Shown here one piece after another: positions 831 to 59,611 of a stretch of DNA of 64,000 nucleotides. This DNA comes from Dehalobacter sp. DCA (GTDB taxonomy: Bacteria > Bacillota > Desulfitobacteriia > Desulfitobacteriales > Syntrophobotulaceae). Below the pieces are notes generated by a model. It made no database searches, had not been told where the DNA came from, and saw nothing but the letters and a program-made list of their open reading frames with translations. Each line of letters opens with the position of its first letter. The first letter of the stretch is position 1. The stretch spans positions 1,116,001-1,180,000 of the forward strand of contig NC_018866.1 of assembly GCF_000305775.1 (NCBI RefSeq). The letters are read 5' to 3'. A program made the position numbers and the translations under genes.

Positions 831-3004
<2,174 letters not shown>

Positions 3005-3041
3005 ATTATTCCACTCCAATAATTTTAAAATCGGCCGTTGC

Positions 3042-43688: not shown

Positions 43689-43904
43689 TCAAAAACCCTT
43701 TACACAATTGCCTTCTGTTACCTGAAGCTCAATAACAAATATCTTACAGCAGCCTGCCTGGGCTGCTTTTTCCGCCAGCTTATCCAGTGCATCCAGCCCT
43801 ATTTCGGTTACGACCGTTGCTTTTTCCAGATCCACACATTGACAGCCGGTTTCTGTCCTTTTGAGATAGCCCTGGTCACATTTTAACGCGTAGAGTTTCA
43901 TCAT
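43689..43904 (-). CDS. Small cysteine-containing protein of unknown function
   Basis: 71 residues, MMKLYALKCDQGYLKRTETG, with five Cys including a CC pair (AGCCKIF). I do not recognise a family. The ATG overlaps the stop of the TrpD-like gene (TAATG), so it is translationally coupled to it and belongs to the riboswitch-controlled operon. Cysteines might bind metal or a cofactor, but this is a guess. Confidence 0.6.
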   Translation of the reverse strand: MMKLYALKCDQGYLKRTETGCQCVDLEKATVVTEIGLDALDKLAEKAAQAGCCKIFVIELQVTEGNCVKGF

Positions 43905-45028
43905 TAGATCTGCCCCAGAAGCTGATTGAGTTTCCCTGATCCGGCAGTCGGATCAGTATTTTGGGCCCCGACCCATTCCTTGAGCTTCCGGATTGCCTGG
44001 CCGTTTTGAATGATTTCTCCGGCCAGTCGGACACCCTCTGCAATCGTTGGGGCTTTGTCCATTAAATAGAGGATTAAGGCTGCATTCAGACATACAATAT
44101 CCGTACACGCCTCCGTTCCTCTACCGGACAGGATGGACAGCAGACGCAGCGCTTCCTGCCTGCGATTCCCGGAAGGGCTTAACTCCTTTTTATCAGGTCT
44201 TCTGATTCCGAATTCTTCCGGGGTAAGTGTGTATTGAACAATTTCGCCGCTCTCTTTTAACTCAGCCACATACGTTTCCCCCAAGGTAGAAGCCTCATCC
44301 ATCCCTTTGGGGCCATTTTGATCCGACCCAAAGACAACCAGCGCACGTTTGAATCCTATCTCCTTCATAACCTTGGTAACCGGCACTACCAATTCCCGGT
44401 CATACACTCCTCGGACAGCATATTGAGGGGCGGCGGGATTAGCCAGGGAAGCAGCTATGTTTAAAGTGGTCCCGAATGCAATCTGCGACAAAATCCGTCC
44501 CAGTGCTTTGGGATGAACCTGCGGACTCATGCCATTAAAAATTCCGATGCCGGTCTTTTCGATACTGCCCTTGACAATATCCGGCGTACATTCCATATCG
44601 ATGCCTACTTCCTCCAAAACGTCAATTGTTCCGCAGGACGAGGTAATCGCACGGGATCCGTGTTTGGCCATCATGATCCCAGCGGCGGCAGCAATGATCG
44701 CTGCAGCAGTACTGATATTAAATGTTTTAACGGTATCCATACCCGTACCGCTGTTTTCAACAAGGCATCCGCGGACATCAGGCACCACTTTCACCGTATC
44801 AAGTTCATAAATAGCTTCCCAACTTCCGGCGATCTCTTCAGCGGTTTCTCCTTTCGCTGTCAGCGCGGACAAAAATGCACCCTGCTGCAGATCCGGCTGC
44901 TGATTCGTCAGTACCTGAACAAACATTGCTTTGGCCTTATCTCTGGATAAATTCTGTTTGCCAATCAATTGGGTAATTCCTGCTCCAAATTCTTTTAAAT
45001 CCATGGTCATCACGCTCATTTTTCTCAT
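43904..45028 (-). CDS. Anthranilate phosphoribosyltransferase-like protein (TrpD family)
   Basis: 374-residue member of the TrpD/glycosyltransferase family 3 fold. The PRPP loop of true TrpD, GTGGDG, is GTGMDT here (NSGTGMDTVKTFNISTA); AKHGSR and GVYDRELV are kept, and the LFNVLGPL loop is TLNIAASLAN. This departs from the TrpD consensus, and no other trp gene is near, so tryptophan synthesis is unlikely. It lies behind a cobalamin riboswitch with a zinc dehydrogenase. A role in making or altering a cobamide base nucleotide is possible but unproven. The start may be nine bases inside, at 45019. Confidence 0.75.
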   Translation of the reverse strand: MRKMSVMTMDLKEFGAGITQLIGKQNLSRDKAKAMFVQVLTNQQPDLQQGAFLSALTAKGETAEEIAGSWEAIYELDTVKVVPDVRGCLVENSGTGMDTVKTFNISTAAAIIAAAAGIMMAKHGSRAITSSCGTIDVLEEVGIDMECTPDIVKGSIEKTGIGIFNGMSPQVHPKALGRILSQIAFGTTLNIAASLANPAAPQYAVRGVYDRELVVPVTKVMKEIGFKRALVVFGSDQNGPKGMDEASTLGETYVAELKESGEIVQYTLTPEEFGIRRPDKKELSPSGNRRQEALRLLSILSGRGTEACTDIVCLNAALILYLMDKAPTIAEGVRLAGEIIQNGQAIRKLKEWVGAQNTDPTAGSGKLNQLLGQI

Positions 45029-45113
45029 TTCTCCTTTATTCTTTATTCGTTTAGAATCTTAACGCTATTCATTTGCTTGCAGTTTACGTTTTTATATTTT
45101 TAGAATTTTTTTC

Positions 45114-46157
45114 TCATAATGTTAAGTCGATAATTGTATTAGTATCTTCCCTCTTTGCTACCTTTTCGATCCCCTGGACAAGGTCGGAAAGAGGCAATGC
45201 ACATGTTGTCATATCGTTTACTTTGATCATGCCGGCAGCCAGCAAATCCAGTGCTTCCCGGTTGTGCAGCGACGAGCAGCCGTAGGCGCCATACACGAAA
45301 AGTTCTTTGTAATGGATCAGATTCAAATCAATAGCCGGAACACTTTCGCTCAAGACCATTCCGCTGAAGAAACAAAAGCGTCCTCTCTTCCCCAGTACGT
45401 TCAGGCTATCAGCCATCGTCTGAGGATCAGGGCAGCAGGGGATAGCTAAATCGGCACCCTTTCCTTCCGTCAACGTCAGGATTCTGCTGACGGCATTTTC
45501 ACCGGTAGGGTTAATCCATTCATCAAAATCATTTTTGGCTGCCTCGATTCTTTCTTCTCTCTTTTCGACAAGGATGATCCTGCCCGCGCCTCTTTTTCTC
45601 GCCAATTTGGCATTTAAGATCCCCAGCGGCCCTGCCCCGAAGATCACAACCTGATCTCCGAGCCCGATCCCAGCACTTTCCTGCATATTCACACAGCAGG
45701 CCAGAGGCTCCGTCAAGGCAGCTTCGTAGAAGGTCAGGGTCTCCGGTATCTTATTCAAGACACCGTTCTTTACCCCATTTTCTGGCACCAATACATATTC
45801 TGCGAATCCCCCGTCATAATGGAAACCCATGATTTTAATATCATCACAAAGATGATGCATTCCCATCTGACAAAACCGGCATGTCCCGCAGGGCAGTCCG
45901 GGCGCAACTTGAACGCGATCTCCGGGCTTGACACAAGTCACTTCCCTTCCAGTTTCGGCCACTACTCCGGTGATTTCATGACCAAGGACCCGCGGCAGGT
46001 GCAAATCACGTTGCCCAATCTGATACGCTTTTAGATCAGTCCGACAGATCCCACAGGCCATCACTTTTACCAGCACATCCCCCTTCCTGCATTCTGGCTG
46101 GGCCACATTCGTTATTCTGATCTTTTGGATTTCCTCCAGGCGAGCAGCCTTCATCAT
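45114..46157 (-). CDS. Zinc-dependent medium-chain dehydrogenase
   Basis: About 347 residues of the MDR alcohol/sorbitol dehydrogenase type. The catalytic zinc residues are in CGICRTDLKAY and GHEITGVV, the structural zinc site in CGTCRFCQMGMHHLC, and the nucleotide-binding loop is IFGAGPLGILNAKLA. Substrate is unknown. GGAGG lies 5-8 nt before the paired ATGATG near 46157. It is the first gene after a cobalamin riboswitch (46266-46438) with its own terminator, so it should be expressed when cobalamin is low. Confidence 0.87.
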   Translation of the reverse strand: MMKAARLEEIQKIRITNVAQPECRKGDVLVKVMACGICRTDLKAYQIGQRDLHLPRVLGHEITGVVAETGREVTCVKPGDRVQVAPGLPCGTCRFCQMGMHHLCDDIKIMGFHYDGGFAEYVLVPENGVKNGVLNKIPETLTFYEAALTEPLACCVNMQESAGIGLGDQVVIFGAGPLGILNAKLARKRGAGRIILVEKREERIEAAKNDFDEWINPTGENAVSRILTLTEGKGADLAIPCCPDPQTMADSLNVLGKRGRFCFFSGMVLSESVPAIDLNLIHYKELFVYGAYGCSSLHNREALDLLAAGMIKVNDMTTCALPLSDLVQGIEKVAKREDTNTIIDLTL

Positions 46158-46192
46158 CCCGACCTCCGTTATGCGAATTTGGCACACGACAT

Positions 46193-46222
46193 AAAAAAAC
46201 CCACACCCTATCATAGGCGTGG
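46193..46222 (-). terminator. Riboswitch expression-platform terminator
   Basis: On the minus strand CCACGCCTAT pairs with ATAGGGTGTGG, followed by a T7 run (TTTTTTT), about 35 bp before the dehydrogenase start. This is the intrinsic terminator expected to form when cobalamin binds the aptamer. A short GGCCAAAAGATTTGGCC hairpin also lies between aptamer and terminator. Confidence 0.8.
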
Positions 46223-46265
46223 ATTTACCGTCTCCTCACCGGCCAAATCTTTTGGCCACATTAAT

Positions 46266-46438
46266 TAAAGGCAGGTCTCCTGACTCCGTCTCATTGCCTG
46301 CCTATCCCTTCCCCGTTTTATCTGGGTGGTTTGATAGGAGCTCAACGTTACAGTGGTGGGTCCGTCCGGGAATCTCACCCGGTTCCCTATTCTCCCCAAG
46401 TTTGTACCATGTCTTCACAAACACTTGGGACACCTAGA
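46266..46438 (-). promoter_or_regulatory. Cobalamin riboswitch upstream of the dehydrogenase/TrpD-like operon
   Basis: The B12 box reads AGTCAGGAGACCTGCC on the minus strand (46285 to 46270). Upstream, GAATAGGGAACCGGGTGAG, TTCCCGGACGGACCCACCAC and TGTAA are the conserved core of the aptamer in the usual order. The first conserved stem begins CTAGGTGTCCC at 46438. A terminator follows at 46193-46222, so it probably works by transcription termination. This is a classical AdoCbl-class layout. Confidence 0.92.
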
Positions 46439-46454
46439 ATTAATTCTTTTTAAA

Positions 46455-47174: not shown

Positions 47175-48452
47175 CTATTCCAGAAGCAATAATCCAAAGT
47201 ATTTGACAAATTCATTTTTGTCTTTTAAGGTCCGCATTGTAAAGCCTTGTTTGGCAACCGTGGCAAAAACATCCATACCGGCGCTCTCCATAGAAGGGCG
47301 CGTAGCCGTACATTTTTTTGGCGGTGCAGGCTGTTTGCACTCGCTGCAAAGATGGCATGGTCCCGCCCAAAAAGCAAAAGCTTTATAAAATCCCTGCTTA
47401 AAAGCGGCCTTCTCAGCATCCAGCATGACACGTTGAAACATGCGGGTCGGCGGCTGGCCTTCAATCAGAAAAGCTTTAGTATAGCCGTCTAATTTTACGC
47501 TTGTTTCCTCATAGGAAGGGCTGTTTGGGGGACAGCATTTTTCCCCATAACTGGAGCATCCGTAGCGGCAATGATCTTTTGCCCAATGGGCCGTAACAAC
47601 ATCCTGAGGATGAATCAGCGTGACAGACTGGACCGGCAGCCTTTTTAACTTTGCACGAAGCTGTGCTTCAGCTGATATCGCAAGTTCCTGTAATTTGTTC
47701 TTATTCTTGGATGCAAAAATCACCGAAATATCCCTGGTAAGTTGTAATAAAGGTGTTTGCATCATCTGCTTTCTCTCAAAGAATGCAGTAACATCCTTTG
47801 CCGCTAGGGCGTTAACCGAAAACATGGAACTATCTTTTTTGAGGTAAGCTTGATACGAGCGAATTGCCGTTGGTAGAGAAGATTCTTCGGCATAAGTACC
47901 AATGACGGCAATCACTGCATCATCGGTGATGGTTTGCGCGCATTTTTCATAATTTCCGCCTGTTATGACCAGATCATAGGGCAAATGGACATCAAAAGAA
48001 ATCTCGGTACATTGTTTCATTAGAAAATTCCGGATTGATGAAGATATTTCATCCGATAAAAACCTTTCAATGCAGACATTTCCTTTGAAATATTCCAATA
48101 TCGGCATAAGTTTTTCGGCGATAAACATTCCGCTGAATTCGCCGTTTATTAATGCATCCAGGCTATAAAAAGAACTTGTCTTTGATAGGTATTTCGTACT
48201 TACGGGGGTATTAGACAAATATCCTTCTTTCCTGATGATTAAACCCATCTTCTCTAGGACGCCGAGAAAAAGGTGTGTCCCTTGGTCATCAAGATGAAGA
48301 CCGTTCGCCAGATCACTAAAAGATCTCCCTTCTTCAATTGCGGTAAAAAGTTCACAATCCATCGCCTTGTGAAGGATTTCCGCTGCATCCTGTTCCGCTT
48401 TGATTTGCAATAAAAAGTCATAGTTGTCGTTCTGGTAATCAAATTTATTCAT
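47175..48452 (-). CDS. Winged-helix/O-methyltransferase-like domain fused to DUF2284
   Basis: 425 residues. The first ~100 (MNKFDYQNDNYDFLLQ...ALINGEF) match the winged-helix dimerisation domain of plant-type O-methyltransferases. A typical SAM-binding GxGxG region is not visible in the next ~120 residues. The last ~180 residues are DUF2284, a cysteine-rich putative metal-binding domain: CRYGCSSYGEKCCPPNSPS and GPCHLCSECK. No catalytic role is established. It is the last gene of the riboswitch-controlled operon, 7 nt after the permease gene. Confidence 0.72.
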   Translation of the reverse strand: MNKFDYQNDNYDFLLQIKAEQDAAEILHKAMDCELFTAIEEGRSFSDLANGLHLDDQGTHLFLGVLEKMGLIIRKEGYLSNTPVSTKYLSKTSSFYSLDALINGEFSGMFIAEKLMPILEYFKGNVCIERFLSDEISSSIRNFLMKQCTEISFDVHLPYDLVITGGNYEKCAQTITDDAVIAVIGTYAEESSLPTAIRSYQAYLKKDSSMFSVNALAAKDVTAFFERKQMMQTPLLQLTRDISVIFASKNKNKLQELAISAEAQLRAKLKRLPVQSVTLIHPQDVVTAHWAKDHCRYGCSSYGEKCCPPNSPSYEETSVKLDGYTKAFLIEGQPPTRMFQRVMLDAEKAAFKQGFYKAFAFWAGPCHLCSECKQPAPPKKCTATRPSMESAGMDVFATVAKQGFTMRTLKDKNEFVKYFGLLLLE

Positions 48453-48459
48453 CCTATTG

Positions 48460-49929
48460 TTATCCTTTATCTGGTTTTTCTTTTTTCTGGCAATTATTTT
48501 TATCGATCAACGCTTCGGAAAATTCTGCAGTCAGTTTCGTCTTATAAAGATCTCCGGTCAAACGTTTATTTTGTGACCGATCAGTTTGTAAAATATGAAC
48601 CCTGGTCAAGAACATATAAATAACAGAGAATAACGCGATCATAATGATCCCGGCAATGAGGCCAGTTCCCTGCCCGGAGATAAATGGCATACTGATGATG
48701 ATCAAGATGAGGCTTAAAAATACGATCCAGGTAGAATACGGATAGCCAGGCATCTGACACTTGCCTGAGGGCGGGCACCCATATTTCTTCCGAAAGCGTA
48801 AGTGCGTTGCCATAATGACCGCATAGGTAAATAACAAAGCAAATCCGCCCGAACTTATTAAAAACAAGTACACGCTCGGGAGCAAAAGACCAATACCCAA
48901 TCCCGCAAGCATGGCTAAACCCGAAATCAGGATCCCCCGATGCGGAACATTTCCCCGGTCCTTAAGCCATCTGGGCGCCTGGCCTTCTTCGGCAAGAGAG
49001 CGCATCATTCTGCCCAATCCGAACATCGCTGCCAGCATTGTAGAAAGGATCGCTGTAATGAGTACAAAATTGATAACGCTGCCTGCCCAGCCGATTCCCC
49101 AGCGATCAAGCGCCGCTACCATGGGACTGAATTTTTCACTCAGGCTGGAAGTGGGGATCAACGGAAGCAGCACAGCAATAGAGATGATATAAAATGCCAG
49201 CAGAATTAATACTGTATGAGAAATTGCCTTCGGAATCGTTTTGATTGGATTGTTGGCTTCCGAAGCAGCCAGTCCGATGATTTCAAAACCGGCATAGGAA
49301 AAGATGACGATAAGCATACTCCCTGCGATCCCTTTAATTCCCGTTGGCATCAAAGGTTCCCTGACTAATTCTCCGATACCAATGCTTGAGACAGCCGGAA
49401 ATAATCCCAGAATTAAAAGTAAGGCAATAAGGATGAATGAGGCCAGCGCCAGCAGCTTTACGGCAGCAAGGCCGCTCTCAAGCTTGCTTAATTTATCGGC
49501 TCCCAGTAAATTCAGAAGTGTGATGCCTATAATAATAAAGCTTCCCAGCCAGGCAATCGATATATTGGGAACCCATTCGCGCATTAGGATTGATACAGCA
49601 GTAGCCTCACTGGACATTGCCAAAACCATCCCAGCCCAGTATACCCAGCCAACTACAAAACCGGTTCCTCTGCCAAAAGCTTGGGCTGCGAAGGTACGAA
49701 AGGAACCTATATCCGGATTTGCAACCGTCATCTCCGACAAAGCAAAAAGAATAAAATAAACGATGACGCCTCCCAGAATAAAGGATAGGATAATGGAAGG
49801 TCCCGCGGCATTAATCGCTACCGATGAACCTAGAAAAAAAGAACCCCCGATGACTGTTCCTAAAGCCATCATCGTAAGCTGCCAGGCAGATAATCCCTGA
49901 TGTTTATTTTCCATGATTCTGTTCTCCAT
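48460..49929 (-). CDS. APC family amino-acid permease
   Basis: 489 residues with 12 membrane helices. The start LSAWQLTMMALGTVIGGSFF, and the segments GWVYWAGMVLAMSSEATA and IIGLAASEANNPIKTIPKAI are typical of amino acid-polyamine-organocation transporters. The C-terminal tail is charged and cytoplasmic. Substrate cannot be told; a hydantoin, amino acid or amine fits with the neighbouring hydantoinase-like genes. It is the ninth gene of the operon downstream of the ECF genes. Confidence 0.88.
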   Translation of the reverse strand: MENRIMENKHQGLSAWQLTMMALGTVIGGSFFLGSSVAINAAGPSIILSFILGGVIVYFILFALSEMTVANPDIGSFRTFAAQAFGRGTGFVVGWVYWAGMVLAMSSEATAVSILMREWVPNISIAWLGSFIIIGITLLNLLGADKLSKLESGLAAVKLLALASFILIALLLILGLFPAVSSIGIGELVREPLMPTGIKGIAGSMLIVIFSYAGFEIIGLAASEANNPIKTIPKAISHTVLILLAFYIISIAVLLPLIPTSSLSEKFSPMVAALDRWGIGWAGSVINFVLITAILSTMLAAMFGLGRMMRSLAEEGQAPRWLKDRGNVPHRGILISGLAMLAGLGIGLLLPSVYLFLISSGGFALLFTYAVIMATHLRFRKKYGCPPSGKCQMPGYPYSTWIVFLSLILIIISMPFISGQGTGLIAGIIMIALFSVIYMFLTRVHILQTDRSQNKRLTGDLYKTKLTAEFSEALIDKNNCQKKEKPDKG

Positions 49930-49953
49930 AACGAAGGTTTTTACCTTCCATTA

Positions 49954-50313
49954 TTATTTCTCAGAATCAAAAAAACATTCCGTTTCTTTCAAATACTTCA
50001 TCACCGCTTGCATCCCTTGCTGATGATTTTTCAGCACCATTGCAATTTCTTCCTTAGTAAGATTGTCTTGGTGAAATCCGGCGGACACCAAACAAACGCA
50101 TTGCAAAACCCTGGACACTTCCTGCGCCAGCGGTTCCGCCAGGGCATCATCACGATGACCTTCTGCCGTATACGTTGTCACCGTCCCGCAGTTCCCGACC
50201 GCAACGCTGCCGATATGCTGTCTCCCTCCGGTAACGCTAATCAGAATGTCGTGTCCAATGACGGATATCTCGTAGGACAGGGCGAGCTTATCTTGGCCGA
50301 TCGCTATTTTCAT
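49954..50313 (-). CDS. LpdD-like small protein partner of UbiD/UbiX
   Basis: 119 residues with VTGGRQHIGSVAVGNCG and the LALSYEISVIGHDILISV opening. This resembles the LpdD/prenylated-flavin chaperone-like family that accompanies UbiD decarboxylases, such as gallate decarboxylase (LpdC, LpdB, LpdD). I am fairly sure of the family but not of its role. It overlaps ubiX by 4 nt. Presence beside ubiX and an ubiD-like gene strengthens the call. Confidence 0.65.
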   Translation of the reverse strand: MKIAIGQDKLALSYEISVIGHDILISVTGGRQHIGSVAVGNCGTVTTYTAEGHRDDALAEPLAQEVSRVLQCVCLVSAGFHQDNLTKEEIAMVLKNHQQGMQAVMKYLKETECFFDSEK

Positions 50314-50870
50314 TGGTCACTTCGCCATCTTTCGTAGAGATTGTGCGGAATCTTCAACAAATCCAATACCTTGCCGACACTTTGATTTACAATATCGTCA
50401 ATGGTTTTGGGCCGGTGGTAAAAAGCCGGTATAGGCGGGATGAGTATGCCGCCAGCTTCTGTTACGGTCGTCATATTTTTCAGATGAATGGACGAAAGCG
50501 GTGTCTCTCTGACCATCAATAAGAGAGGACGCCGCTCTTTCAAGGCCACGTCGGAAGCGCGGACAATCAGATTATCGCTGTAGCCATTCGCAATCCCGGA
50601 CAGAGTCTTCATACTGCAAGGTGCGACAATGGTCGCCTCGATCCCGTAAGAACCGCTGGCAACGGCGGCAGCTAAGTCGTTATGGTCGTATACTTTGTCT
50701 GCTAAAGATTGGACGTAACCCACAGCATAATCCGTTTCCAGCGAGAGCGTTTCTTTTGCCCACCCGCTCATGATCAGCGAAACATGATGCTCTGTCTCTT
50801 TGAGGACTTCCAACAGACGCACGCCATAGATCACCCCGGTGGCACCTGTCAGAGCAACAAGAATCTTCAT
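50310..50870 (-). CDS. ubiX: UbiX-like flavin prenyltransferase
   Basis: Makes prenylated FMN, the cofactor of UbiD decarboxylases, from FMN and dimethylallyl phosphate. 186 residues; ALTGATGVIYGVRLLEVL is the FMN-binding start, and APCSMKTLSGIANGYSDNLI, MVRETPLSSIHLKNM and ILIPPIPAFYHRPKTIDDIV are conserved UbiX/Pad1 segments. Its local role is to supply cofactor to the UbiD-like enzyme at 54795-56162. It is read 60 bp after hyuB across a hexanucleotide-repeat gap. Confidence 0.93.
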   Translation of the reverse strand: MKILVALTGATGVIYGVRLLEVLKETEHHVSLIMSGWAKETLSLETDYAVGYVQSLADKVYDHNDLAAAVASGSYGIEATIVAPCSMKTLSGIANGYSDNLIVRASDVALKERRPLLLMVRETPLSSIHLKNMTTVTEAGGILIPPIPAFYHRPKTIDDIVNQSVGKVLDLLKIPHNLYERWRSDQ

Positions 50871-50881
50871 TACTTATCAAT

Positions 50882-50920
50882 CCTTACCTTATCCTTATCC
50901 TTGTCTTTGTCTTTGTCGCC
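50882..50920. repeat. Hexanucleotide repeat in the hyuB-ubiX gap
   Basis: On the minus strand the gap reads as near-perfect hexamers, GACAAA/AGACAA units followed by GGATAA units, ending near the ubiX start. It overlaps the expected ribosome-binding region of ubiX (AAGGAT repeated). Such simple repeats can slip, but there is no evidence that this one varies. Confidence 0.65.
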
Positions 50921-50930
50921 TTATTTTTTC

Positions 50931-52682
50931 TTACACTCTTCTATTCCCATTTTTACTGTTTCTGAATTGATTCGTTTTATCATAATCAATTCCCGTTTCA
51001 GTTATGACAACACCATAAATTTCTTTAGCCGTTTTTACGGAGATGATCTCATCCAAAACATCCGCATATACCTTTTCTACCGGGCGGTCCAGCGGTTTGC
51101 CCCATCCGCCGCCGCCGCAGGAACTCAGAATGACCTGGTCACCTTTGGCAACACATCTTGGCGCTTCTTTACTTGCCATAACGACCGGTTCCCCCTGATG
51201 AAGAAAAACCCCTTTATTTAAACTCCCTTGGTTTCCGCCGTTTAAACCGTAAGGCGCAAATTTCATCCCATCCCCAAAATTCACGATATGGCTGCCTTCA
51301 TCGTATAGCTCAAACGCATATTTCATCCCTGCTCCGCCGCGATATTCTCCGGCGCCGGCCGTATCCGTTTCCATTTCATGATAAAGGGTGATGTGCGGAT
51401 ATTGGATTTCGTTGGATTCAATATCCGGCGTTTTGACGCCGCCGAAATTAGACATGGGCGACATATAGGATTTTCCGTCTCTTCCTTGCATTGCACCGCC
51501 GCTTCCGGTCGAGCAGAAAGAAAATCCTACATAATAACGGTTATTTCTGGGGTCTCTGCCATAATAAGAAGGGCCTGCATAGCGCGTATATCCCGCAGGA
51601 ACCCTTCCGGGGACTGCTTGATTCAGTGCCTGAAAAATGGCGCCGATCATTTCACTGGCCGGAGTTAAAGTGCAAAGCGTCATGGGTGCCGGTTCATAAG
51701 GATTTACTAAAGACCCTTTGGGCAAATGGACATCGATGCAGCGGAAGGCACCATCATTTCTGGGAATATCGTCGCCTAAAAACCAAAGGACCGCAATACC
51801 CGAAGCAGTCGTCGCTGTGACCACTGAAGTATTGATAAAGCCTTTAACCTGCGGGTCTGTCCCTGCGAAGTCAACTAAAAGACGTTCGCCTTCTACTTTC
51901 ACTGCAATCTCAATTTTAACAGGTTCTTCTTGAAAACCGTCATCATCAATGTATTCGGTCGCCCGGTAAATACCGTCAGGAATCTCCCGTATCCGCTTCT
52001 TCGTGAGCATCTCGGTTTGTTCCAGGGTTTCGGCAATGGCTTTGTTTACGACAGCGGGCGTATAGGCTTCCACCATCTCCAGAATGCGCTTCGCAGCAAC
52101 TTTGTTGGCACCGATCTGGGCTAAGAGGTCGCTTTTGAGCATGTCGGGATTACGGGTATTGATTAAAATCAGATCTAAAATTTCACCAATGAATTCGTTG
52201 TTGCGCATTAGTTTTGTCGGGGGAATCCGAATTCCTTCCTGAAATATTTCGGTTGCCTTGGGATTATAGCTGCCCGCGGTGGAACCTCCGATATCCCCGT
52301 GATGGGCGCGGCTGACACAGAAAAACATTAAATTGTCCTCAAAAAAGACAGGGGTAATGATTCCGATATCAGGCAGGTGATTTCCACCGTCATAAGGATC
52401 ATTGATTATAAAAACATCACCGTTTGTGATGCTATTCGGATATTTCCGCAAAACAGATTTGACGCTGAAGGAGCCTGCTGTCGCCAAAATCGGAATACCG
52501 CTTAACTGAGAGACCAATTGACCGTCTCGATCACAAATACAACAAGCAAAGTCACAGGCTTCGGCGAAGATCGGGGAATGGGCAGAATGCTCCAAGGCGA
52601 GTCCCATTTCTTTGGTGATACTATCGAGACGATTGGCGATAACGGTGCGGTTAATCATATCTTCCGTCGTTGTCCTTGTCAT
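50931..52682 (-). CDS. hyuB: Hydantoinase/oxoprolinase family B subunit
   Basis: 583-residue HyuB-type protein: RTTTEDMINRTVIANRLDSI at the start, FIINDPYDGGNHLPDIG, and HHGDIGGSTAGSYNPKATEIF. It pairs with HyuA to open cyclic amides using ATP, or to carboxylate ketones such as acetone or acetophenone. Its start overlaps hyuA by 4 nt. The substrate is not predictable from sequence. Known relatives include N-methylhydantoinase, 5-oxoprolinase and acetophenone carboxylase subunits. Confidence 0.92.
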   Translation of the reverse strand: MTRTTTEDMINRTVIANRLDSITKEMGLALEHSAHSPIFAEACDFACCICDRDGQLVSQLSGIPILATAGSFSVKSVLRKYPNSITNGDVFIINDPYDGGNHLPDIGIITPVFFEDNLMFFCVSRAHHGDIGGSTAGSYNPKATEIFQEGIRIPPTKLMRNNEFIGEILDLILINTRNPDMLKSDLLAQIGANKVAAKRILEMVEAYTPAVVNKAIAETLEQTEMLTKKRIREIPDGIYRATEYIDDDGFQEEPVKIEIAVKVEGERLLVDFAGTDPQVKGFINTSVVTATTASGIAVLWFLGDDIPRNDGAFRCIDVHLPKGSLVNPYEPAPMTLCTLTPASEMIGAIFQALNQAVPGRVPAGYTRYAGPSYYGRDPRNNRYYVGFSFCSTGSGGAMQGRDGKSYMSPMSNFGGVKTPDIESNEIQYPHITLYHEMETDTAGAGEYRGGAGMKYAFELYDEGSHIVNFGDGMKFAPYGLNGGNQGSLNKGVFLHQGEPVVMASKEAPRCVAKGDQVILSSCGGGGWGKPLDRPVEKVYADVLDEIISVKTAKEIYGVVITETGIDYDKTNQFRNSKNGNRRV

Positions 52683-54754
52683 GCTTCTGCACCTTCTTTT
52701 GTTATAGATAAAACACCGTTCTTAACCGATTTGCCTGCAAAGCCAGCGGGGATCAAAACCGTGGTGTAGTCAAAATTGATCAGAGCCGGGCCGTTGATAC
52801 CTTTTGTACCATTGCCGGTTAAATCACCGGCGTGGTAGACAGGGACGGAAATTTCGCCCGTTTGTCCGAAGGGATTCCCTGCCACTGTCCTATTCGCTAA
52901 GAGAATGTCATTCTCAGGGAACGGAAAGCGTGTGTTTTCCTTTTCCCGTTCTAGACAAGCCAGATGGATATTAATGATTTCCCATTCTTTGTCTGTTTCT
53001 GCATATTCATAGATGCTTTCGTGGGTACGATTGAAGGCGATTTCTAAAGCATCCCGGCTCTCTGAGGTAAACGCTCCCTGCCAGGGTATTGCTATTTCAT
53101 GGTGCTGTCCGATGTAACGCATTTCCAGGGTAAGTCGGAAATTCTGCTCATTTTCCGGTACTCCCAAACGCCCGAGCTCCGCTTTTCCTTCTTTTTTCAT
53201 GTCGGTAATAACCACGTTAATTTTCGATGGGTCCCATTGTCCCTTTTCCATAAAGAAACTTCGCGTGAAATCACAGCGACGGGTTGCCCCTAACATACCC
53301 CATGCACAAAAGACAGGACCGATGACCGGAAATAAGACTTCTTTCATATGCAGCGCATCCATCATGTTGGCTGCAAACAACGGAAAAGCTCCTCCCGCGC
53401 CGATCAAGGAGAATTTTCTGGGGTCATTGCCTTTTTGGATTGTGACAAGACGCACCGCATCAGCCATCATCTCAGTAGCAATCCGGTAAATGATATTGGC
53501 CCCTTCTGCTACAGAGATATCCAGCGGGGCAGCAACTTTGTCGTGAATCACTTTTTCAGCCAGCTTCTTATTAAGGCCCATTTGACCACCGAGGAAACTA
53601 TCTTCATCGATCAGTCCCAAAACAACCAGAGCATCCGTAACCGTAGGCTCGGTCCCGCCTAAACCGTAACAGGCAGGGCCTGGAACTGATCCGGCGGAGT
53701 CCGGTCCCACCAATAATCTTCCACTTTCATCCAGACGGGCAATACTACCCCCGCCGGCTCCAATGGAAGTGATGTCAATGGTCGGAATCGATAACGGATA
53801 GCCAGCGATCTTCGATTGGGGAATCAGCTGATTTTTACTGTCTGACACATGCACATCAAAACTGGTCCCCCCCATATCTGCCAACACCGTATAGGGCTTT
53901 TCTGTCATTTTCCCGATGGCTTCATTGCCGCAGGCACCACCGGCAGGTCCCGAAAAAAGGGTTTTGACAGCGAAACTGGACATCGCATCCGTATCGCTTA
54001 AGCCACCGCTGTTCATCATCATATGAATCGGTTTGCCCCAACCATATTGGGCCAGTTCCTTTTTGACGGTGTGGAGATAATCTTGAAGAACCGGCGTCAG
54101 ATAAGCATTGAGAACCGTCGTGGAAGTTCTTTCATACTCTCTGATTTTTGGTGCTACGTCCGAAGAGAGCGCCACGAAAACGCCGGGTAGTTCTTCTCGA
54201 ATAATTTCTGCCGTTCTTTTTTCATGTTCCGGATTTAGAAAAGAAAAAAGGTAGCAAACCGCAATGCTCTGTACGCCGTATGCCTTGCATTTCAGACAAG
54301 CATTTCGGACAGCTTGTTCATCCAGCACTTTAAGGATGTCCCCTTTGTAGTCCATGCGCTGCGCAATACCCAAGCGCAGTCTGCGCGGAACCAGTACATC
54401 CGGCGTTTCCGCTCGCAGATCCCATTGATTTTCAAGCTGAGAACGGCGTATCTCCAGCGCATCACGGAAACCCTCCGTGGTAAAAAGTGCAGTGACCGCG
54501 CCTTTTTTTTCTAAAAGGGCGTTTAACGCTAAGGTGGTGCCGTGAATAATTTGTTCCGTTTCTGAGAGGAGTGTCTCTAAATCCGTATGCCAGGCATCTG
54601 CTAATTTTTTTAAGCCAGCGATCATCCCCTGGGCAAGATGGTTATGATCCGTGAGATTTTTGACAAAGACCGTTTTGTGTTCACTGTTCTGAAACGTCCC
54701 TACCGCGGTGTAGTCGGTGAAAGTACCTCCTGTATCAATGGCAATTTTAATCAT
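52679..54754 (-). CDS. hyuA: Hydantoinase/oxoprolinase family A subunit
   Basis: 691-residue ATP-binding subunit of the HyuAB complex. It begins IKIAIDTGGTFTDYTAV (actin-like phosphate loop), and later GTTLALNALLEKKGAVTALF, SGPAGGACGNEAIG and VLADMGGTSFDVHV are conserved family sites. It phosphorylates the substrate (lactam or ketone), which the B subunit then processes. It is 40 bp below ubiD on the same transcript. Confidence 0.93.
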   Translation of the reverse strand: MIKIAIDTGGTFTDYTAVGTFQNSEHKTVFVKNLTDHNHLAQGMIAGLKKLADAWHTDLETLLSETEQIIHGTTLALNALLEKKGAVTALFTTEGFRDALEIRRSQLENQWDLRAETPDVLVPRRLRLGIAQRMDYKGDILKVLDEQAVRNACLKCKAYGVQSIAVCYLFSFLNPEHEKRTAEIIREELPGVFVALSSDVAPKIREYERTSTTVLNAYLTPVLQDYLHTVKKELAQYGWGKPIHMMMNSGGLSDTDAMSSFAVKTLFSGPAGGACGNEAIGKMTEKPYTVLADMGGTSFDVHVSDSKNQLIPQSKIAGYPLSIPTIDITSIGAGGGSIARLDESGRLLVGPDSAGSVPGPACYGLGGTEPTVTDALVVLGLIDEDSFLGGQMGLNKKLAEKVIHDKVAAPLDISVAEGANIIYRIATEMMADAVRLVTIQKGNDPRKFSLIGAGGAFPLFAANMMDALHMKEVLFPVIGPVFCAWGMLGATRRCDFTRSFFMEKGQWDPSKINVVITDMKKEGKAELGRLGVPENEQNFRLTLEMRYIGQHHEIAIPWQGAFTSESRDALEIAFNRTHESIYEYAETDKEWEIINIHLACLEREKENTRFPFPENDILLANRTVAGNPFGQTGEISVPVYHAGDLTGNGTKGINGPALINFDYTTVLIPAGFAGKSVKNGVLSITKEGAEA

Positions 54755-54794
54755 ACGCTCATCCCTTAATCGGTATATTTAGAACACACAACCC

Positions 54795-56162
54795 TTATTT
54801 GGCATATTTAAGAAGCCGTTGCACTGCCGCTCTTACTTCATCGTCCAATTGGATTTTAGGGGCGAAACCGCTTAAGGGCTTTGTGGCATCAATCCCCATT
54901 TTGGACGTACGGCTTAATTCATCCGTTGAGGGGTCAAGGGTCACACCCATTCCCAGGTGCTGCGGTAAAATGGAAACCCCTTTATCCGCTTGTAACCGAG
55001 TGGCAAGTGCCCATAGGACTTCCTCTTCGTTAAAGACGTCGACATCTTCATCCACCACAATGACCATCTTGATATTGTGGTCGACAGCAAAAGCGGCGTA
55101 AATGGCTTGCATAGGCTGCCCTTCGGCAATTTTTTTCATAGAAATATAGCAATGAAACAATCCGCAGGCCGAAAAGGGTGCATGAACTGCTTTGATATTC
55201 GGCAAAGTCTGATGTAAAGCGTTTAAAACATCGCCTTCTCGCTGAATGGCCACAACCGTGATATGTTCACTGCTCATCCCAGGTGTCAAGTCATGATAAA
55301 AAGCGTTTTGCCGGTAGCGGATTGCTTTGACTTTGAAGACATTCTCCGTACTGCGATAGCAGGCGTAATTCGTAAATTCAGCGAAAGGACCTTCCTTTTC
55401 CCGCACATCAGCCAGTATTTCACCTTCCAGGACAATTTCCGCATAGGCCGGAACCTGTAAATTGACCGTTGCGCAAGGTGCAACCTCTAATGGTTCACCG
55501 AAAAGTCCGGCAATCGCACCATATTTCCCCTGGTCATATGGAACGAGGGCCATCGATCCCAAGGCAATATTGGGATGAACACCAATCACGATGGCGGCTT
55601 CCAGGCTCTGTCCTTTTTCTTCGCTTCTTCGAAAATATTCCCAGAGTCTTTGACGGGAATGGAGTGATATCCCTAAGGTATTCTTGTTTTTTAACTGCAT
55701 GCGGTGGAAACCTAAGGTTTCCACACCGCTTACAGGGTCTTTGGCAACACACAGTCCAGAGGTTACATAGGGCCCGGCGTCAATCGGAAAGTGGGTCGGA
55801 ATCGGAAGCTTATAGAGATCGATGTCATCGCCGGTGATACAATGCTCGGCAAAAGGAGGGTTCTTAATAACTTTGACCTCTTCGATCCGTTTTTTGATAC
55901 GCTCGGCATAGGTTTCAGAAACTTTAGACGCTTCGACACCCAGTCCTTTGCCAAACCGTTCTCTGGTGCTTAAGATACTGGTCACCACAGGAAACGCACT
56001 GTTCTCTACTTTATCAAAAACCATGACGGGATAACGATGCTCTTTTTCCAGTTCCATAATGAGGGTGCTGATTTCATATGCTCTTTTAACTTCTTCCGTG
56101 ACATGCTTTACTTCACCATCTCGTTCGAGCTGCTTCAAAAAATCTCTTAAGTCTTGGCTCAT
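54795..56162 (-). CDS. UbiD family decarboxylase
   Basis: 455-residue prenylated-FMN decarboxylase. It has GFHRMQLKNKNTLGI (with the catalytic Arg), GEPLEVAPCATVNLQVPA, and the glutamate motif REKEGPFAEFTNYACYRS. These are the residues that form the Glu-Arg-Glu active site in the family. Members act on hydroxybenzoates, cinnamates and other unsaturated or aromatic acids, in either direction. With UbiX and an LpdD-like protein encoded in the same operon it should be functional; the substrate is unknown. Confidence 0.92.
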   Translation of the reverse strand: MSQDLRDFLKQLERDGEVKHVTEEVKRAYEISTLIMELEKEHRYPVMVFDKVENSAFPVVTSILSTRERFGKGLGVEASKVSETYAERIKKRIEEVKVIKNPPFAEHCITGDDIDLYKLPIPTHFPIDAGPYVTSGLCVAKDPVSGVETLGFHRMQLKNKNTLGISLHSRQRLWEYFRRSEEKGQSLEAAIVIGVHPNIALGSMALVPYDQGKYGAIAGLFGEPLEVAPCATVNLQVPAYAEIVLEGEILADVREKEGPFAEFTNYACYRSTENVFKVKAIRYRQNAFYHDLTPGMSSEHITVVAIQREGDVLNALHQTLPNIKAVHAPFSACGLFHCYISMKKIAEGQPMQAIYAAFAVDHNIKMVIVVDEDVDVFNEEEVLWALATRLQADKGVSILPQHLGMGVTLDPSTDELSRTSKMGIDATKPLSGFAPKIQLDDEVRAAVQRLLKYAK

Positions 56163-56207
56163 GTCCTAACCTCTTTTCTTACTGCATTGTCTCCCGCGAA
56201 TGATTCT

Positions 56208-56744
56208 TTATTGGGCTAAACCTGATTTTTTAATGCTGTCATACACCAATTTTGTGATGATTGTGGAAAGAGGCCAGCAGACTGCAATAGTAATCAATGC
56301 TTCAATTACGGCAACCTTGATGGGTAACTGGTAAATATTGATTAATCCAATACAAACAACAGCATTCCCTAAAACATTGCAGAGAAATTGGGCGAGAATG
56401 TGGTGCCACCATTTTTCCATGGAGCACTTGGCTGCCACCAATGATACGGCAAGTGACCCGATGGCATTCGCGAAGACAAAAGCAATCCACAGCGGGCTGT
56501 ACCAGATGGAAATGATAGCTTCAACTTCCCCGGCAATGATTCCGGCAGGCTGTTTATAGAGCAGGACAATGAGTGCCGTAAAGGATGCCCAGACCGTACC
56601 GTTAATTAAGTACATGCCTGCTTTGCCTGTGGGAAGCAGGTTGTCAATAAAACCTGTAGCCTGACAGGCTATGACAAAGACAATACCTAAGAGAATGGAC
56701 CCCACGAGTGCTTTTGTGTCGGTTCTGAAAAATTTGTTATTCAT
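56208..56744 (-). CDS. ECF transporter substrate-binding (S) component, YkoE-like
   Basis: 178-residue protein with five to six membrane helices. Its size, and segments such as AGMYLINGTVWASFTALIV and IIAGEVEAIISIWYSPLW, suggest a YkoE-type S component, which captures the substrate and docks on the ATPase/T unit encoded just upstream. AGGAGG precedes the ATG. The cobalamin riboswitch at the operon head suggests a corrinoid, benzimidazole-type base or other cobalamin-linked substrate, but this is inference; substrate specificity cannot be read from the sequence. Confidence 0.7.
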   Translation of the reverse strand: MNNKFFRTDTKALVGSILLGIVFVIACQATGFIDNLLPTGKAGMYLINGTVWASFTALIVLLYKQPAGIIAGEVEAIISIWYSPLWIAFVFANAIGSLAVSLVAAKCSMEKWWHHILAQFLCNVLGNAVVCIGLINIYQLPIKVAVIEALITIAVCWPLSTIITKLVYDSIKKSGLAQ

Positions 56745-56777
56745 AATGTCCTCCTAAAATAAAATATTTTTTATATT

Positions 56778-56858
56778 TTAGTACCAGGTCAACCCTAAAT
56801 CTACTTGTTCCCTCTCGTTAAATTGTTTACATGCATTTTGGAGTTATCAAGGTACTAA
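56778..56858. repeat. 81-bp MITE-like element overlapping the ecfT stop
   Basis: Bounded by TTAGTACC (56778) and GGTACTAA (56858), the left end continuing as AGGTCAACCC. The outer 25 bp match the right end of the 32358-32573 element with one difference. On the minus strand it runs from the last codons of ecfT (TTA GTA CCT TGA) to about 35 bp before the S-component start, so the element supplies the C-terminal Leu-Val-Pro and the stop of EcfT. Confidence 0.65.
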
Positions 56859-57578
56859 GTTAACTGTAATGAAAAATAGGATAAAAACCACCATACTGAT
56901 CATTTCCCAGCTTTTTAAATGCAATTGTTTGCCAAAAGTTCGTTGCTTGCTTCTGCCATAGCCTTTTAATTCCATCGAAAGAGCAATATCTGAAGTATGC
57001 CGGACTGTACGATATAGCAACGGCATAAACGTTAACGGAAGATTTTTTATTCTATTTTTAATCCCTTCAGAGGGATAACCCCGAACAGATTGACTCTCTG
57101 AAATTGCCAGATATTCCTTTTGCATCAGAGGAAAAAACCGTTTTGTCATAACAACTAACATGGCATAGCGATAAGGAACACGCCATGATATGAGCATTAA
57201 AGCGGCATCTGTGGCAGAAGTCCAGGTCATAAACTGAACGGCAGCAAAGGTTATAGCTACCGTGCGGGTAATACCTAAAGCAGCGGCCGGAATAGCGCCA
57301 GTATAAACAGATACGATTCCCCACTGCCAAACAAGTTCTCCATCCCGGCAGAACAAAAGCTGTATCACAAGAATTTGCGAGGCTACTAAAAGCATTACAG
57401 GCAAAAGTATTTTATATTTTTTTAAATGGTTAGAAAAAATACAATCCGTAATCATTACCAATGCAATCATCCCAATTTCCTGGATCAGATTCTGCGAAAG
57501 CAAAGCTGTAAGGATCAGTGTTAAACACCATACCAACTTCGTGCGCGGATCAATTTCTTCAATGAAGGCCATAAGCAA
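56847..57578 (-). CDS. ECF transporter transmembrane (T) component
   Basis: 243-residue CbiQ/EcfT-type protein with about six helices. It begins MAFIEEIDPRTKLVWCLTLI, a typical EcfT start, and has the coupling helix regions SMELKGYGRSKQRTF and SQSVRGYPSEGIKNRIKN (Ala/Ser-Arg-Gly pattern) that touch the ATPase. It overlaps the ATPase gene by 20 nt; a start two codons later (57572) is also possible. The last codons and the stop belong to a MITE-like element, so the native C-terminus may have been replaced. Confidence 0.85.
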   Translation of the reverse strand: MLMAFIEEIDPRTKLVWCLTLILTALLSQNLIQEIGMIALVMITDCIFSNHLKKYKILLPVMLLVASQILVIQLLFCRDGELVWQWGIVSVYTGAIPAAALGITRTVAITFAAVQFMTWTSATDAALMLISWRVPYRYAMLVVMTKRFFPLMQKEYLAISESQSVRGYPSEGIKNRIKNLPLTFMPLLYRTVRHTSDIALSMELKGYGRSKQRTFGKQLHLKSWEMISMVVFILFFITVNLVP

Positions 57579-59052
57579 TGCCCTCCTTCTGAAAATCTAA
57601 TCCGATGTCCTTCAATGTTTTTTCAAAAGAACCAATTTTTGGGGTCGCAATATCCAATGCCAGATGGTGCTTATGCATCGCCATGATTCGATTGGTATAT
57701 TGTTTGGCCAAACTCAGGTCATGGGTAACGAGAATAACCGTTTTACCTTGTTGCTGAAATGCAGAAAGCAGCTCCATGATCAGAGTACTTTGTTCTTCAT
57801 CTAAGCCTGAGGTTGGTTCATCAGCCATGATAATCTCGGGACCTCCTACTAAAACAGAGGCAATTGCCAGTTTCTGACGCTGGCAGCGGCTGAGCCTATG
57901 AGGATGAATATCGGCGTATGCCAACAGCCCGACTTCAGCTAAAATTCCATTCACCTTCTCTTCAATTTCCTCTTCCGGCAGTTTTCTTGTTCTTAAAATA
58001 AAAGCTACCTCGTCTTTTACTGTGTTCGTAAAGATTTGAAGATCAGGGTTTTGAAACAGAAAACCTATTTGACTGCGTATGGTTGCTAAATTTCTTTTGG
58101 TCAGGGGTTTGCCAAATATCTGAATCGCACCAGCATCCGGGACAAGCAAACCTTCCATTAACTTTAAGAGCGTCGTTTTCCCTGAACCATTGAGTCCAAT
58201 CAACCCAATAAAATCCCCTTGATTAATGGCTAAATTGATTTTTTCACATCCCTTAAAATCTCCTTTATAGGTAAAGGATAGATCCTTCACTTCAATTATT
58301 TTTTCATTTGCTGCCGTAATGTTTCTTGCTGGCCTTGTTTTATTTAAACGTTTCTGATAGTCATCAGGGCTGCATTCTTCTTTGATTGTTCCTTCAGCCA
58401 TGATAAGAATACGATTGGTATAAGGGAGAATATCACAGGCCCGGTCCATCACCATAATCACGGTAGCTCCCTTTTCTTTATTTAAAAAACCGATATGAGA
58501 ATAGAGGTCTTGTTTTCCCTTTAAGTCTAATTCTGCGGTGGGCTGGTCTAAAACAAGAATGGGAGTTTCCATAGCGAGAACACTTGCCAATACCACTCTT
58601 TGGGCTTGTCCGCCGGACAGTCCATCCGTATTTCTTTGTTCAAAACCCTCCAGTCCAACGAATTGCAACGTTTTTTTGACTCTGTTCTTCATTTCCTCCC
58701 AAGGAAGTTCCATATTGGCAATACCAAAAGCCACTTCTTCCTCTACCGTGATACTGACAATTTGATTTTGCGGCTCCTGCATCATATAGCCGATGTGATC
58801 GCACATTTTGGCCAGGGGAATATCATGGATATCTTGCCCCATGACCCTAATGGTGCCGTTTAACTGCCCATTGAAAAATTGAGGCGCTGCTCCGGTGATG
58901 CTATGGAGCAACATCGATTTTCTCGATGCCGCTTCCCCTGTAATGGCGATAAAATCTCCTTTATTGATGGTTAAGTCGATATCTTTTAACACTTTCTTTG
59001 TCTCAGGCGGAAAAGTAAGAGATTCTATTTTAAGCTGTACCGCAGGTTCCAT
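57559..59052 (-). CDS. Fused two-domain ECF transporter ATPase (EcfA-EcfA')
   Basis: 497 residues with two ABC domains in one chain, as in YkoD and CbrU. Domain 1 (1-240) has a degenerate Walker A (GEAASRKS) and Walker B ending Asp-Gln (ILVLDQPTAELD), but an intact signature LSGGQAQR. Domain 2 (252-485) has an intact Walker A (GLNGSGKTT) and Walker B (IIMADEPTSGLD), but its signature is LSRCQRQ. So one composite ATP site looks complete and the other looks degenerate. It is the first gene after the cobalamin riboswitch at 59187-59337. Confidence 0.9.
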   Translation of the reverse strand: MEPAVQLKIESLTFPPETKKVLKDIDLTINKGDFIAITGEAASRKSMLLHSITGAAPQFFNGQLNGTIRVMGQDIHDIPLAKMCDHIGYMMQEPQNQIVSITVEEEVAFGIANMELPWEEMKNRVKKTLQFVGLEGFEQRNTDGLSGGQAQRVVLASVLAMETPILVLDQPTAELDLKGKQDLYSHIGFLNKEKGATVIMVMDRACDILPYTNRILIMAEGTIKEECSPDDYQKRLNKTRPARNITAANEKIIEVKDLSFTYKGDFKGCEKINLAINQGDFIGLIGLNGSGKTTLLKLMEGLLVPDAGAIQIFGKPLTKRNLATIRSQIGFLFQNPDLQIFTNTVKDEVAFILRTRKLPEEEIEEKVNGILAEVGLLAYADIHPHRLSRCQRQKLAIASVLVGGPEIIMADEPTSGLDEEQSTLIMELLSAFQQQGKTVILVTHDLSLAKQYTNRIMAMHKHHLALDIATPKIGSFEKTLKDIGLDFQKEGIAYGLH

Positions 59053-59075
59053 CGGATGAAAGCCTCCATATAAAA

Positions 59076-59100
59076 ATGTAAACTATATACATGTAAACTA
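59076..59100. repeat. Short direct repeat before the ATPase gene
   Basis: ATGTAAACTA occurs at 59076-59085 and again at 59091-59100, 15 bp apart, between the riboswitch terminator and the ATPase start. It could be a protein-binding site, but the repeat is short and AT-rich. Confidence 0.35.
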
Positions 59101-59113
59101 CATGCATGCAAAA

Positions 59114-59162
59114 TAAAAAAAGTTCCAGTTTTGAGAGATACTAACTCTCAAACTGAAACTTT
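59114..59162 (-). terminator. Riboswitch terminator of the ECF/UbiD operon
   Basis: On the minus strand AAAGTTTCAGTTTGAGAG pairs with CTCTCAAAACTGGAACTTT around a short loop, followed by a T-rich run (TTTTTTTATTTT). The stem is about 18 bp. It sits between aptamer and the ATPase start, so it should be the cobalamin-dependent terminator. Confidence 0.85.
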
Positions 59163-59186
59163 ACCGTCGCTTCATTACGATATCTT

Positions 59187-59337
59187 TATTGGCAGGTCTT
59201 CTGACTCATAGTTTTAACCGACTTCTGTGCCTTCCCAATTTCTCAGTGGCATTGTACAGTCATCACAACTATTTACAGCGGTGGGTCCGTCCAGGATTTG
59301 CACCTGATTCCCTATTCTTCTCCATAAGAGACACCAA
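59187..59337 (-). promoter_or_regulatory. Cobalamin riboswitch upstream of the ECF/UbiD/Hyu operon
   Basis: The B12 box is AGTCAGAAGACCTGCC on the minus strand (59206 to 59191). Upstream, GAATAGGGAATCAGGTGCAA, ATCCTGGACGGACCCACCGC and TGTAA are present in the canonical order. It begins TTGGTGTCTC at 59337. Fit to the AdoCbl riboswitch consensus is very good. It follows a TTGACT/TAGAAT promoter, and a strong terminator lies downstream. Confidence 0.93.
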
Positions 59338-59362
59338 AAAGAATATATGATTATTACGTATT

Positions 59363-59390
59363 ATTCTAAATGAAATTGGAGAAAAGTCAA
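59363..59390 (-). promoter_or_regulatory. Promoter of the ECF/UbiD/Hyu operon
   Basis: On the minus strand TTGACT (59390-59385), a 16-bp spacer and TAGAAT (59368-59363), about 25 bp upstream of the first conserved aptamer bases. Good sigma-A match. It lies between the FmdB-like gene stop and the riboswitch. Confidence 0.65.
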
Positions 59391-59410: not shown

Positions 59411-59611
59411 CTAACATTTGCAGCCAGAACCGCATTTCCCAGATGAACAGGTTTTACCACCTTTAACTCCATAGGTATTAACCGTTGTAAACCGCTGACT
59501 TATTTTATCATCAGCGCACTGCGGACATACTTGTTTGTCTCTTGAACTAACACTACAAAAAACAGAAAACTTGTGACCACACTTTTCGCAAATAAAGTCA
59601 TAAGTTGGCAT
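59411..59611 (-). CDS. FmdB-like zinc-ribbon small protein
   Basis: 66 residues, MPTYDFICEKCGHKFSVF and then CPQCADDKISQRF give a classic CxxC-CxxC zinc ribbon of the FmdB regulator family; the C-terminal ~15 residues are Cys-rich (SGKCGSGCKC). The function of the family is uncertain. It lies between the CRP-type regulator gene and the cobalamin riboswitch, and its own transcript probably ends before the riboswitch promoter. Confidence 0.85.
   Translation of the reverse strand: MPTYDFICEKCGHKFSVFCSVSSRDKQVCPQCADDKISQRFTTVNTYGVKGGKTCSSGKCGSGCKC

Follow-up and report, generated by a model that had tools for sequence, protein, structure and literature searches.

A conserved gene set behind cobalamin riboswitches, with a putative ECF importer, UbiD-type decarboxylase and HyuAB, in Dehalobacter and related bacteria

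Why should a cobalamin riboswitch govern genes for an importer, a decarboxylase and an ATP-dependent amide hydrolase? The question is raised by a locus of Dehalobacter sp. DCA (positions 1,116,001-1,180,000 of NC_018866.1, a window of 64,000 nucleotides from a complete genome of 3,069,953 bases), in which ten minus-strand genes follow such a riboswitch. By comparative sequence analysis, the core of this gene set is linked to terminator-bearing cobalamin riboswitches in many genomes and in several gene orders, and this conserved linkage is our main finding. What the genes provide is a more tentative matter. We put at roughly 0.4 the probability that they form a cobamide-starvation module supplying a lower-ligand base or its direct precursor.

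The genes encode the A, T and S components of an energy-coupling factor (ECF) transporter, followed by UbiD, HyuA, HyuB, UbiX, an LpdD-like protein, an APC permease and a DUF2284 protein; we refer to the recurring core of this set as the module. The order was established from open reading frame positions and family profile searches.

59363..59390, minus strand: promoter-like site TTGACT-16-TAGAAT, noted for its position alone, the number of such matches not being above chance
59174..59353, minus strand: cobalamin riboswitch aptamer RF00174 (111 bits against a gathering score of 31.5; E 5.7e-27)
59118..59162, minus strand: intrinsic terminator of the riboswitch expression platform (hairpin of -20.9 kcal/mol and a U tract; z -5.6)
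57559..59052, minus strand: ECF ATPase with two fused ABC domains, A-A (TIGR04520 above its cut-off)
56847..57578, minus strand: ECF T component of the CbiQ family (PF02361, 3.3e-23; under the cobalt CbiQ equivalog cut-off)
56208..56744, minus strand: predicted ECF S component of an undescribed family (AlphaFold pLDDT 88; ECF S fold, Z up to 16.6)
54795..56162, minus strand: UbiD-family prenyl-FMN decarboxylase, HmfF-like (profiles; Arg/Glu catalytic motif and HmfF-type SEH...R motif)
52679..54754, minus strand: HyuA, ATP-dependent lactamase/hydantoinase subunit (profiles; nearest solved relative caprolactamase 6yra)
50931..52682, minus strand: HyuB (profile searches and comparison with solved proteins)
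50310..50870, minus strand: UbiX flavin prenyltransferase (TIGR00421 and PRK06029 above cut-off)
49954..50313, minus strand: LpdD-like small protein, PAC_bac/PF21758 (5.3e-26)
48460..49929, minus strand: APC amino-acid permease (AA_permease), a Dehalobacter accessory (profile and relatives' loci)
47175..48452, minus strand: DUF2284 protein with an N-terminal extension, a Dehalobacter accessory (profiles and relatives' loci)

An earlier reading of the DNA letters alone (the sequence-only reading) had proposed this gene list with its positions and strand, and the profile searches confirm the families, the S component being placed by its modelled fold. The several overlaps and short gaps that it described are also present: A and T genes overlap by 20 bp, HyuA and HyuB by 4 bp and UbiX and LpdD by 4 bp, and the longest gap is the 102 bp between T and S, the others measuring 45 bp (S-UbiD), 40 bp (UbiD-HyuA), 60 bp (HyuB-UbiX), 24 bp (LpdD-APC) and 7 bp (APC-DUF2284).

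Conservation of the cobalamin link

The aptamer and intrinsic terminator proposed in front of the ECF ATPase gene are both well supported by their scores. The sigma-A promoter proposed there is a weaker case: the site exists at 59390-59363, but promoter-like matches in the window number 27 against 28 expected by chance, so that the operon promoter itself is no more than plausible. An Rfam scan of the window found no further riboswitch in the operon interior; the genome has six cobalamin riboswitches, two of them within the window. In each of the 18 leaders inspected, those of separate UbiD loci included, the aptamer is followed by a terminator-like hairpin, and control of the module is therefore probably transcriptional.

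Within the class, 26 of the 83 genomes have the S component, among them those of Dehalobacter and Desulfosporosinus, and it is found in further Clostridia, namely Thermincola, Alkalibaculum bacchi, Anaerosolibacter carboniphilus, Geosporobacter ferrireducens, Cryptoclostridium and several metagenome-assembled genomes (MAGs). Rfam scans placed RF00174 in front of 36 of the 38 distinct S loci. The two others (L039 and L072) lack intact A and T genes, and their genomes also lack a UbiD orthologue; a transposase gene near the contig end occupies the expected A-T place at L039, and only an A fragment precedes S at L072. Both look like decayed modules, although an assembly break is also possible for L039.

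The linkage persists as gene order changes. The Dehalobacter order is A-T-S-UbiD-HyuA-HyuB-UbiX-LpdD, and that of Thermincola A-T-S-UbiD-HyuA-HyuB. The order HyuA-HyuB-S-UbiD-A-T, with HyuAB first behind the riboswitch, is seen in Alkalibaculum, Anaerosolibacter and Geosporobacter. Yet another locus (L105) reads S-A-T-UbiD, with UbiX-LpdD upstream under a second cobalamin riboswitch of its own. In Desulfosporosinus the ECF genes (A-T-S) often stand alone and UbiD-HyuA lies at another locus, mostly in the same genome; at L064 UbiD-HyuA lies shortly before the ECF genes. In all, 12 loci have UbiD-HyuA elsewhere than behind the ECF genes, and at 12 of 12 it has its own cobalamin riboswitch; no S gene was seen in one of these genomes, the incomplete G033. 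Before one separate UbiD-HyuA pair (L126, contig C3 of G030) lies an S-gene remnant at 2922-3143, with 56 residues aligned, which on this alignment is a trace of the splitting of the locus. Within the class, 21 genomes have both S and UbiD, five S only, two UbiD only and 55 neither (Fisher 6e-13, ignoring common descent), so that UbiD is present in 21 of the 26 S-positive genomes.

These arrangements bear on the view that the riboswitch serves the ECF genes only, the enzyme genes being unrelated passengers with promoters of their own. Internal promoter-like matches and the several Desulfosporosinus loci with A-T-S only could be taken in its favor, but it is contradicted by the riboswitches of the 12 detached enzyme loci and by the three genera in which HyuAB heads the riboswitch operon, and we regard it as very improbable. 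A chance association of riboswitch and enzymes was likewise rejected: a random locus would lie behind one of six riboswitches in about 0.08% of cases, a rough figure that ignores common descent, against the 12 of 12 found. Among the findings that the sequence-only reading had named as speaking against its proposal were the block occurring elsewhere without a cobalamin link and a second promoter that sets the enzyme genes apart from the ECF genes. In the comparative genomics the intact block always comes with a cobalamin riboswitch and the detached enzyme genes retain one, so that, as far as such comparisons go, the proposed control is both upheld and found to be conserved.

The two distal genes of the operon look accessory to the module. 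Among the loci compared, the APC permease stands beside the module, and DUF2284 within the gene order, in Dehalobacter only, and relatives have the two the other way round.

Predicted activities of importer and enzymes

The genes point to ECF import, decarboxylation and ATP-dependent amide hydrolysis. The A, T and S components are encoded together, as expected of an ECF transporter. The S component has no match in Pfam, NCBIfam or PDB sequences, 19 homologues have no consistent Pfam or NCBIfam family match, and comparison with CbrT gave no match by sequence. Its AlphaFold model has the ECF S fold, the best matches (Z 14 to 16.6) including 5edl (presumably YkoE), ThiT and FolT, and on this model we consider it a new ECF S family. 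Since YkoE, ThiT, FolT, BioY and RibU entries score alike, the fold search gives no ligand; CbrT and CblT are not among the fold matches listed, which excludes neither.

UbiD has three UbiD domains and the conserved Arg and Glu residues of the family (the Arg of an FHR stretch and the Glu pair of REKEGPFAE), as expected of a UbiD decarboxylase. It aligns over its full length with furan-2,5-dicarboxylate decarboxylase HmfF (6h6v), its closest solved relative, and next with indole-3-carboxylate decarboxylase. A His and an Arg are shared with HmfF (SEH...QRE against SREH...ARE) and absent in the indole-3-carboxylate enzyme; in HmfF we take these two residues of the SREH...R stretch to bind the second carboxylate. 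We know of no ECF transporter or riboswitch associated with HmfF. The UbiX, UbiD and LpdD-like trio is reminiscent of the hydroxyarylic acid decarboxylases VdcBCD/LpdBCD, from which it differs in that HyuAB separates the trio genes and the scores lie below the VdcC and VdcB exception-model cut-offs (UbiD reaches 286.6 bits against 650 for NCBIfam VdcC and is not assigned to VdcC/LpdC). HyuA and HyuB contain Hydantoinase A and B domains, which places them in the ATP-dependent hydantoinase/oxoprolinase superfamily. Caprolactamase CapAB (6yra) is the closest solved relative of both, with other ATP-dependent hydantoinases/oxoprolinases; the scores of 531 and 366 bits against cut-offs of 1000 leave them outside the CapAB equivalogs.

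Could the importer take up a corrinoid, cobinamide or a cobalt chelate, with the enzymes trimming or destroying its organic part? ECF transporters exist for B12 (PMC5997447), and others take up cobalt. The T component resembles CbiQ, and several loci consist of ECF genes alone behind a riboswitch. However, where the ECF genes stand alone, UbiD-HyuA mostly persists elsewhere in the genome under its own cobalamin riboswitch, the substrates of UbiD relatives are small aromatic acids, and the genome of the window, by inspection, also holds separate genes for a BtuFCD-like importer and for cobalt CbiMNQO. We therefore consider this explanation improbable.

What the module may supply

In Dehalobacter restrictus, five cobalamin riboswitch operons with a transcription terminator have been described and the response to corrinoid starvation was measured (Rupakula et al., 2015; PMC4285132). 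They resemble the present locus in genus and in the pairing of riboswitch and terminator; they serve corrin synthesis, loop assembly, CbiZ, BtuFCD and CbiMNQ, and none has UbiD-HyuAB. The probable D. restrictus genome (G052) contains the module with a riboswitch of 110 bits (L034), a locus that is not among the five published operons. The terminator arrangement and these measured homologues (PMC4285132) lead us to infer that B12 switches the module off, in which case it should supply something that is scarce when B12 is scarce.

The sequence of events that we favor begins with low corrinoid, which would allow read-through of the riboswitch terminator. The ECF transporter with its new-family S component would then import a small molecule, perhaps a carboxylated (hetero)aromatic compound bearing a lactam or ureide. 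UbiD, with prenyl-FMN from UbiX and aided by the LpdD-like protein, would strip the ring carboxylate, HyuAB would open a lactam, imide or ureide bond at the cost of ATP, and the product, a cobamide lower-ligand base or direct precursor, would be activated by CobT. That the product is a lower ligand is suggested by context only. A lower-ligand precursor was among the compounds considered in the sequence-only reading and is plausible; that reading is supported as regards cobalamin control, and a special role of the neighboring dehalogenase is not supported.

Three kinds of observation point to a lower ligand, each weak alone and none direct. First, Dehalobacter sp. DCA and CF are reported to be cobamide producers, and the related Desulfitobacterium hafniense obtains its lower ligands, purine and probably azabenzimidazole, from the medium, the purine being taken from yeast extract in strain DCB-2 (PMC6389850). 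Second, at one locus (L042 in G009) the only full cobT of the genome, with its own riboswitch, lies directly upstream of the module riboswitch, and in Anaerosolibacter carboniphilus the module is directly followed by a yjdF gene with its azaaromatic riboswitch (L081, 15068-15598). Third, CobT is present in every one of the 33 module genomes tested and in 61 of the 88 others, a contrast whose significance is overstated, CobT being common anyway and the genomes not independent. The likeness of UbiD to enzymes acting on heteroaromatic acids, HmfF and indole-3-carboxylate decarboxylase, also argues for this reading; a prenyl-FMN enzyme of the wider UbiD family weakly decarboxylates imidazole-4-carboxylate (PMC7976604).

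The limits of the CobT contrast weigh against a lower-ligand role, as do several further points. The cobT and yjdF adjacencies are one case each. HyuAB is not beside the module in some genomes, and at two loci (L079, 3102-13042; L080, 7333-13081) the place of UbiD-HyuAB after S is taken by an aldehyde ferredoxin oxidoreductase together with a small protein resembling MoaD. Many module-bearing Desulfosporosinus have three ThiC-family genes, including tandem paralogues resembling BzaAB, so that salvaged benzimidazole may be unneeded there. With the ThiC family as proxy for de novo benzimidazole genes, no anticorrelation with the module was found. No ThiC-family gene is present in any of the five Dehalobacter genomes, which should thus be auxotrophs for thiamine (hydroxymethylpyrimidine, HMP) and be without BzaA/B/F.

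Distant relatives of the S component occur in G379 and G193, with 28% identity over the full length at L108. By inspection, their neighbors encode allantoinase or dihydropyrimidinase, hydantoin racemase, PucR and ureidoglycolate enzymes. This allantoin/hydantoin-type company counts for a lower-ligand role; it would also suit catabolism of an N-heterocycle of the purine/allantoin or hydantoin kind, in which a cobamide-requiring later step would be the reason for B12 control. In its favor, HyuAB homologues are able to open lactams and hydantoins, and corrinoid-protein-like, methyltransferase-like and CobW-like GTPase genes directly follow the module at L104 (14312-18836). A riboswitch through which B12 turns genes off nevertheless has the wrong sign for a B12-requiring pathway, and an Rfam scan found no cobalamin riboswitch at the distant-relative loci L108 and L109, so that catabolism of this kind is doubtful.

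A somewhat stronger, though still unlikely, alternative is a B12-independent bypass in which the module makes, from an imported compound, a metabolite otherwise obtained from a B12-dependent enzyme, in the manner of riboswitch-controlled isozymes such as MetE. Cobalamin riboswitches do control isozymes of B12-dependent enzymes (PMC3766115), and the module enzymes are of degradative type. On the other side, we know of no B12-dependent reaction that UbiD and HyuAB would replace, and the universal retention of CobT in module genomes suggests that cobamides are made or remodeled there.

Supply of a lower ligand thus remains our preferred reading. A more specific version, to which we give slightly less credence, is an undescribed anaerobic branch of cobamide metabolism in which the new ECF S family, UbiD and HyuAB turn a carboxylated aza-aromatic compound with a lactam or ureide group into a lower-ligand base. 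Conversion of a flavin-derived quinoxalinone carboxylate to a dimethylbenzimidazole precursor without oxygen would be an example that is chemically coherent and wholly speculative.

Neighboring genes and known systems

The second cobalamin riboswitch of the window, which the sequence-only reading had not connected with the module, precedes genes for a Zn-dependent alcohol dehydrogenase (ADH) and a TrpD-like phosphoribosyltransferase.

46452-46253, minus strand: second cobalamin riboswitch with terminator (96 bits), its operon spanning 43904-46452

The TrpD-like protein belongs to a divergent clade of seven, all seven encoded behind a cobalamin riboswitch; an ordinary TrpD is encoded elsewhere in the genome. 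All seven have other residues at the motifs presumed to form the anthranilate site (HG(S/A) for the HGN of KHGN, GTGMD for GTGGD, and FGT..LNIAASL for IRT..FN.LGPL), which suggests a different acceptor. As a lead only, a different lower ligand may be what this phosphoribosyltransferase acts on. In one genus, two MAGs (G045 and G046; L155, L156, L160, L161) encode CobS and a riboswitch-controlled TrpD-like protein, CobT not being detected, and replacement of CobT by the TrpD-like enzyme is possible there. At L079 an ADH-TrpD-like operon, also behind a cobalamin riboswitch, lies about 4 kb from S. The operon was rejected as an obligate partner of the module: few module genomes carry it and some carriers lack S.

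The sequence-only reading had also pointed out that the adjoining dehalogenase depends on corrinoid. A link between it and the module was rejected, as no PceA homologue stands beside the module at the fifth Dehalobacter locus (L036), in Desulfosporosinus or at the other loci searched by BLAST; judged by these comparisons, the adjoining dehalogenase is incidental. A small FmdB-like zinc-ribbon open reading frame (59412-59611, minus strand) lies between a CRP-like regulator gene and the module riboswitch.

Known Firmicutes transport systems for cobamide salvage, the kind of role proposed for the module, are CblT/CblS, which salvage alpha-ribazole, and ECF-CbrT, which takes up vitamin B12 (PMC5997447). 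To our knowledge neither of them involves UbiD- or Hyu-type enzymes. The classes distinguished in a survey of cobalamin regulons are synthesis, transport, cobalt and isozymes (PMC3766115). A literature search for the gene set returned no paper and no named pathway, which is weak evidence as subscription journals lay mostly outside its reach; in the literature searched, the step proposed for the module was found nowhere.

In conclusion, the module may bear on where anaerobes that lack known benzimidazole genes obtain their lower ligands. The lower ligand of a cobamide determines which microbes can use that form of B12, and organohalide respirers depend on such ligands. The riboswitch-marked importer, decarboxylase and lactamase of cultivable Desulfosporosinus are direct candidates, and if the proposal is true, UbiD and HyuAB would gain a role in cofactor metabolism.

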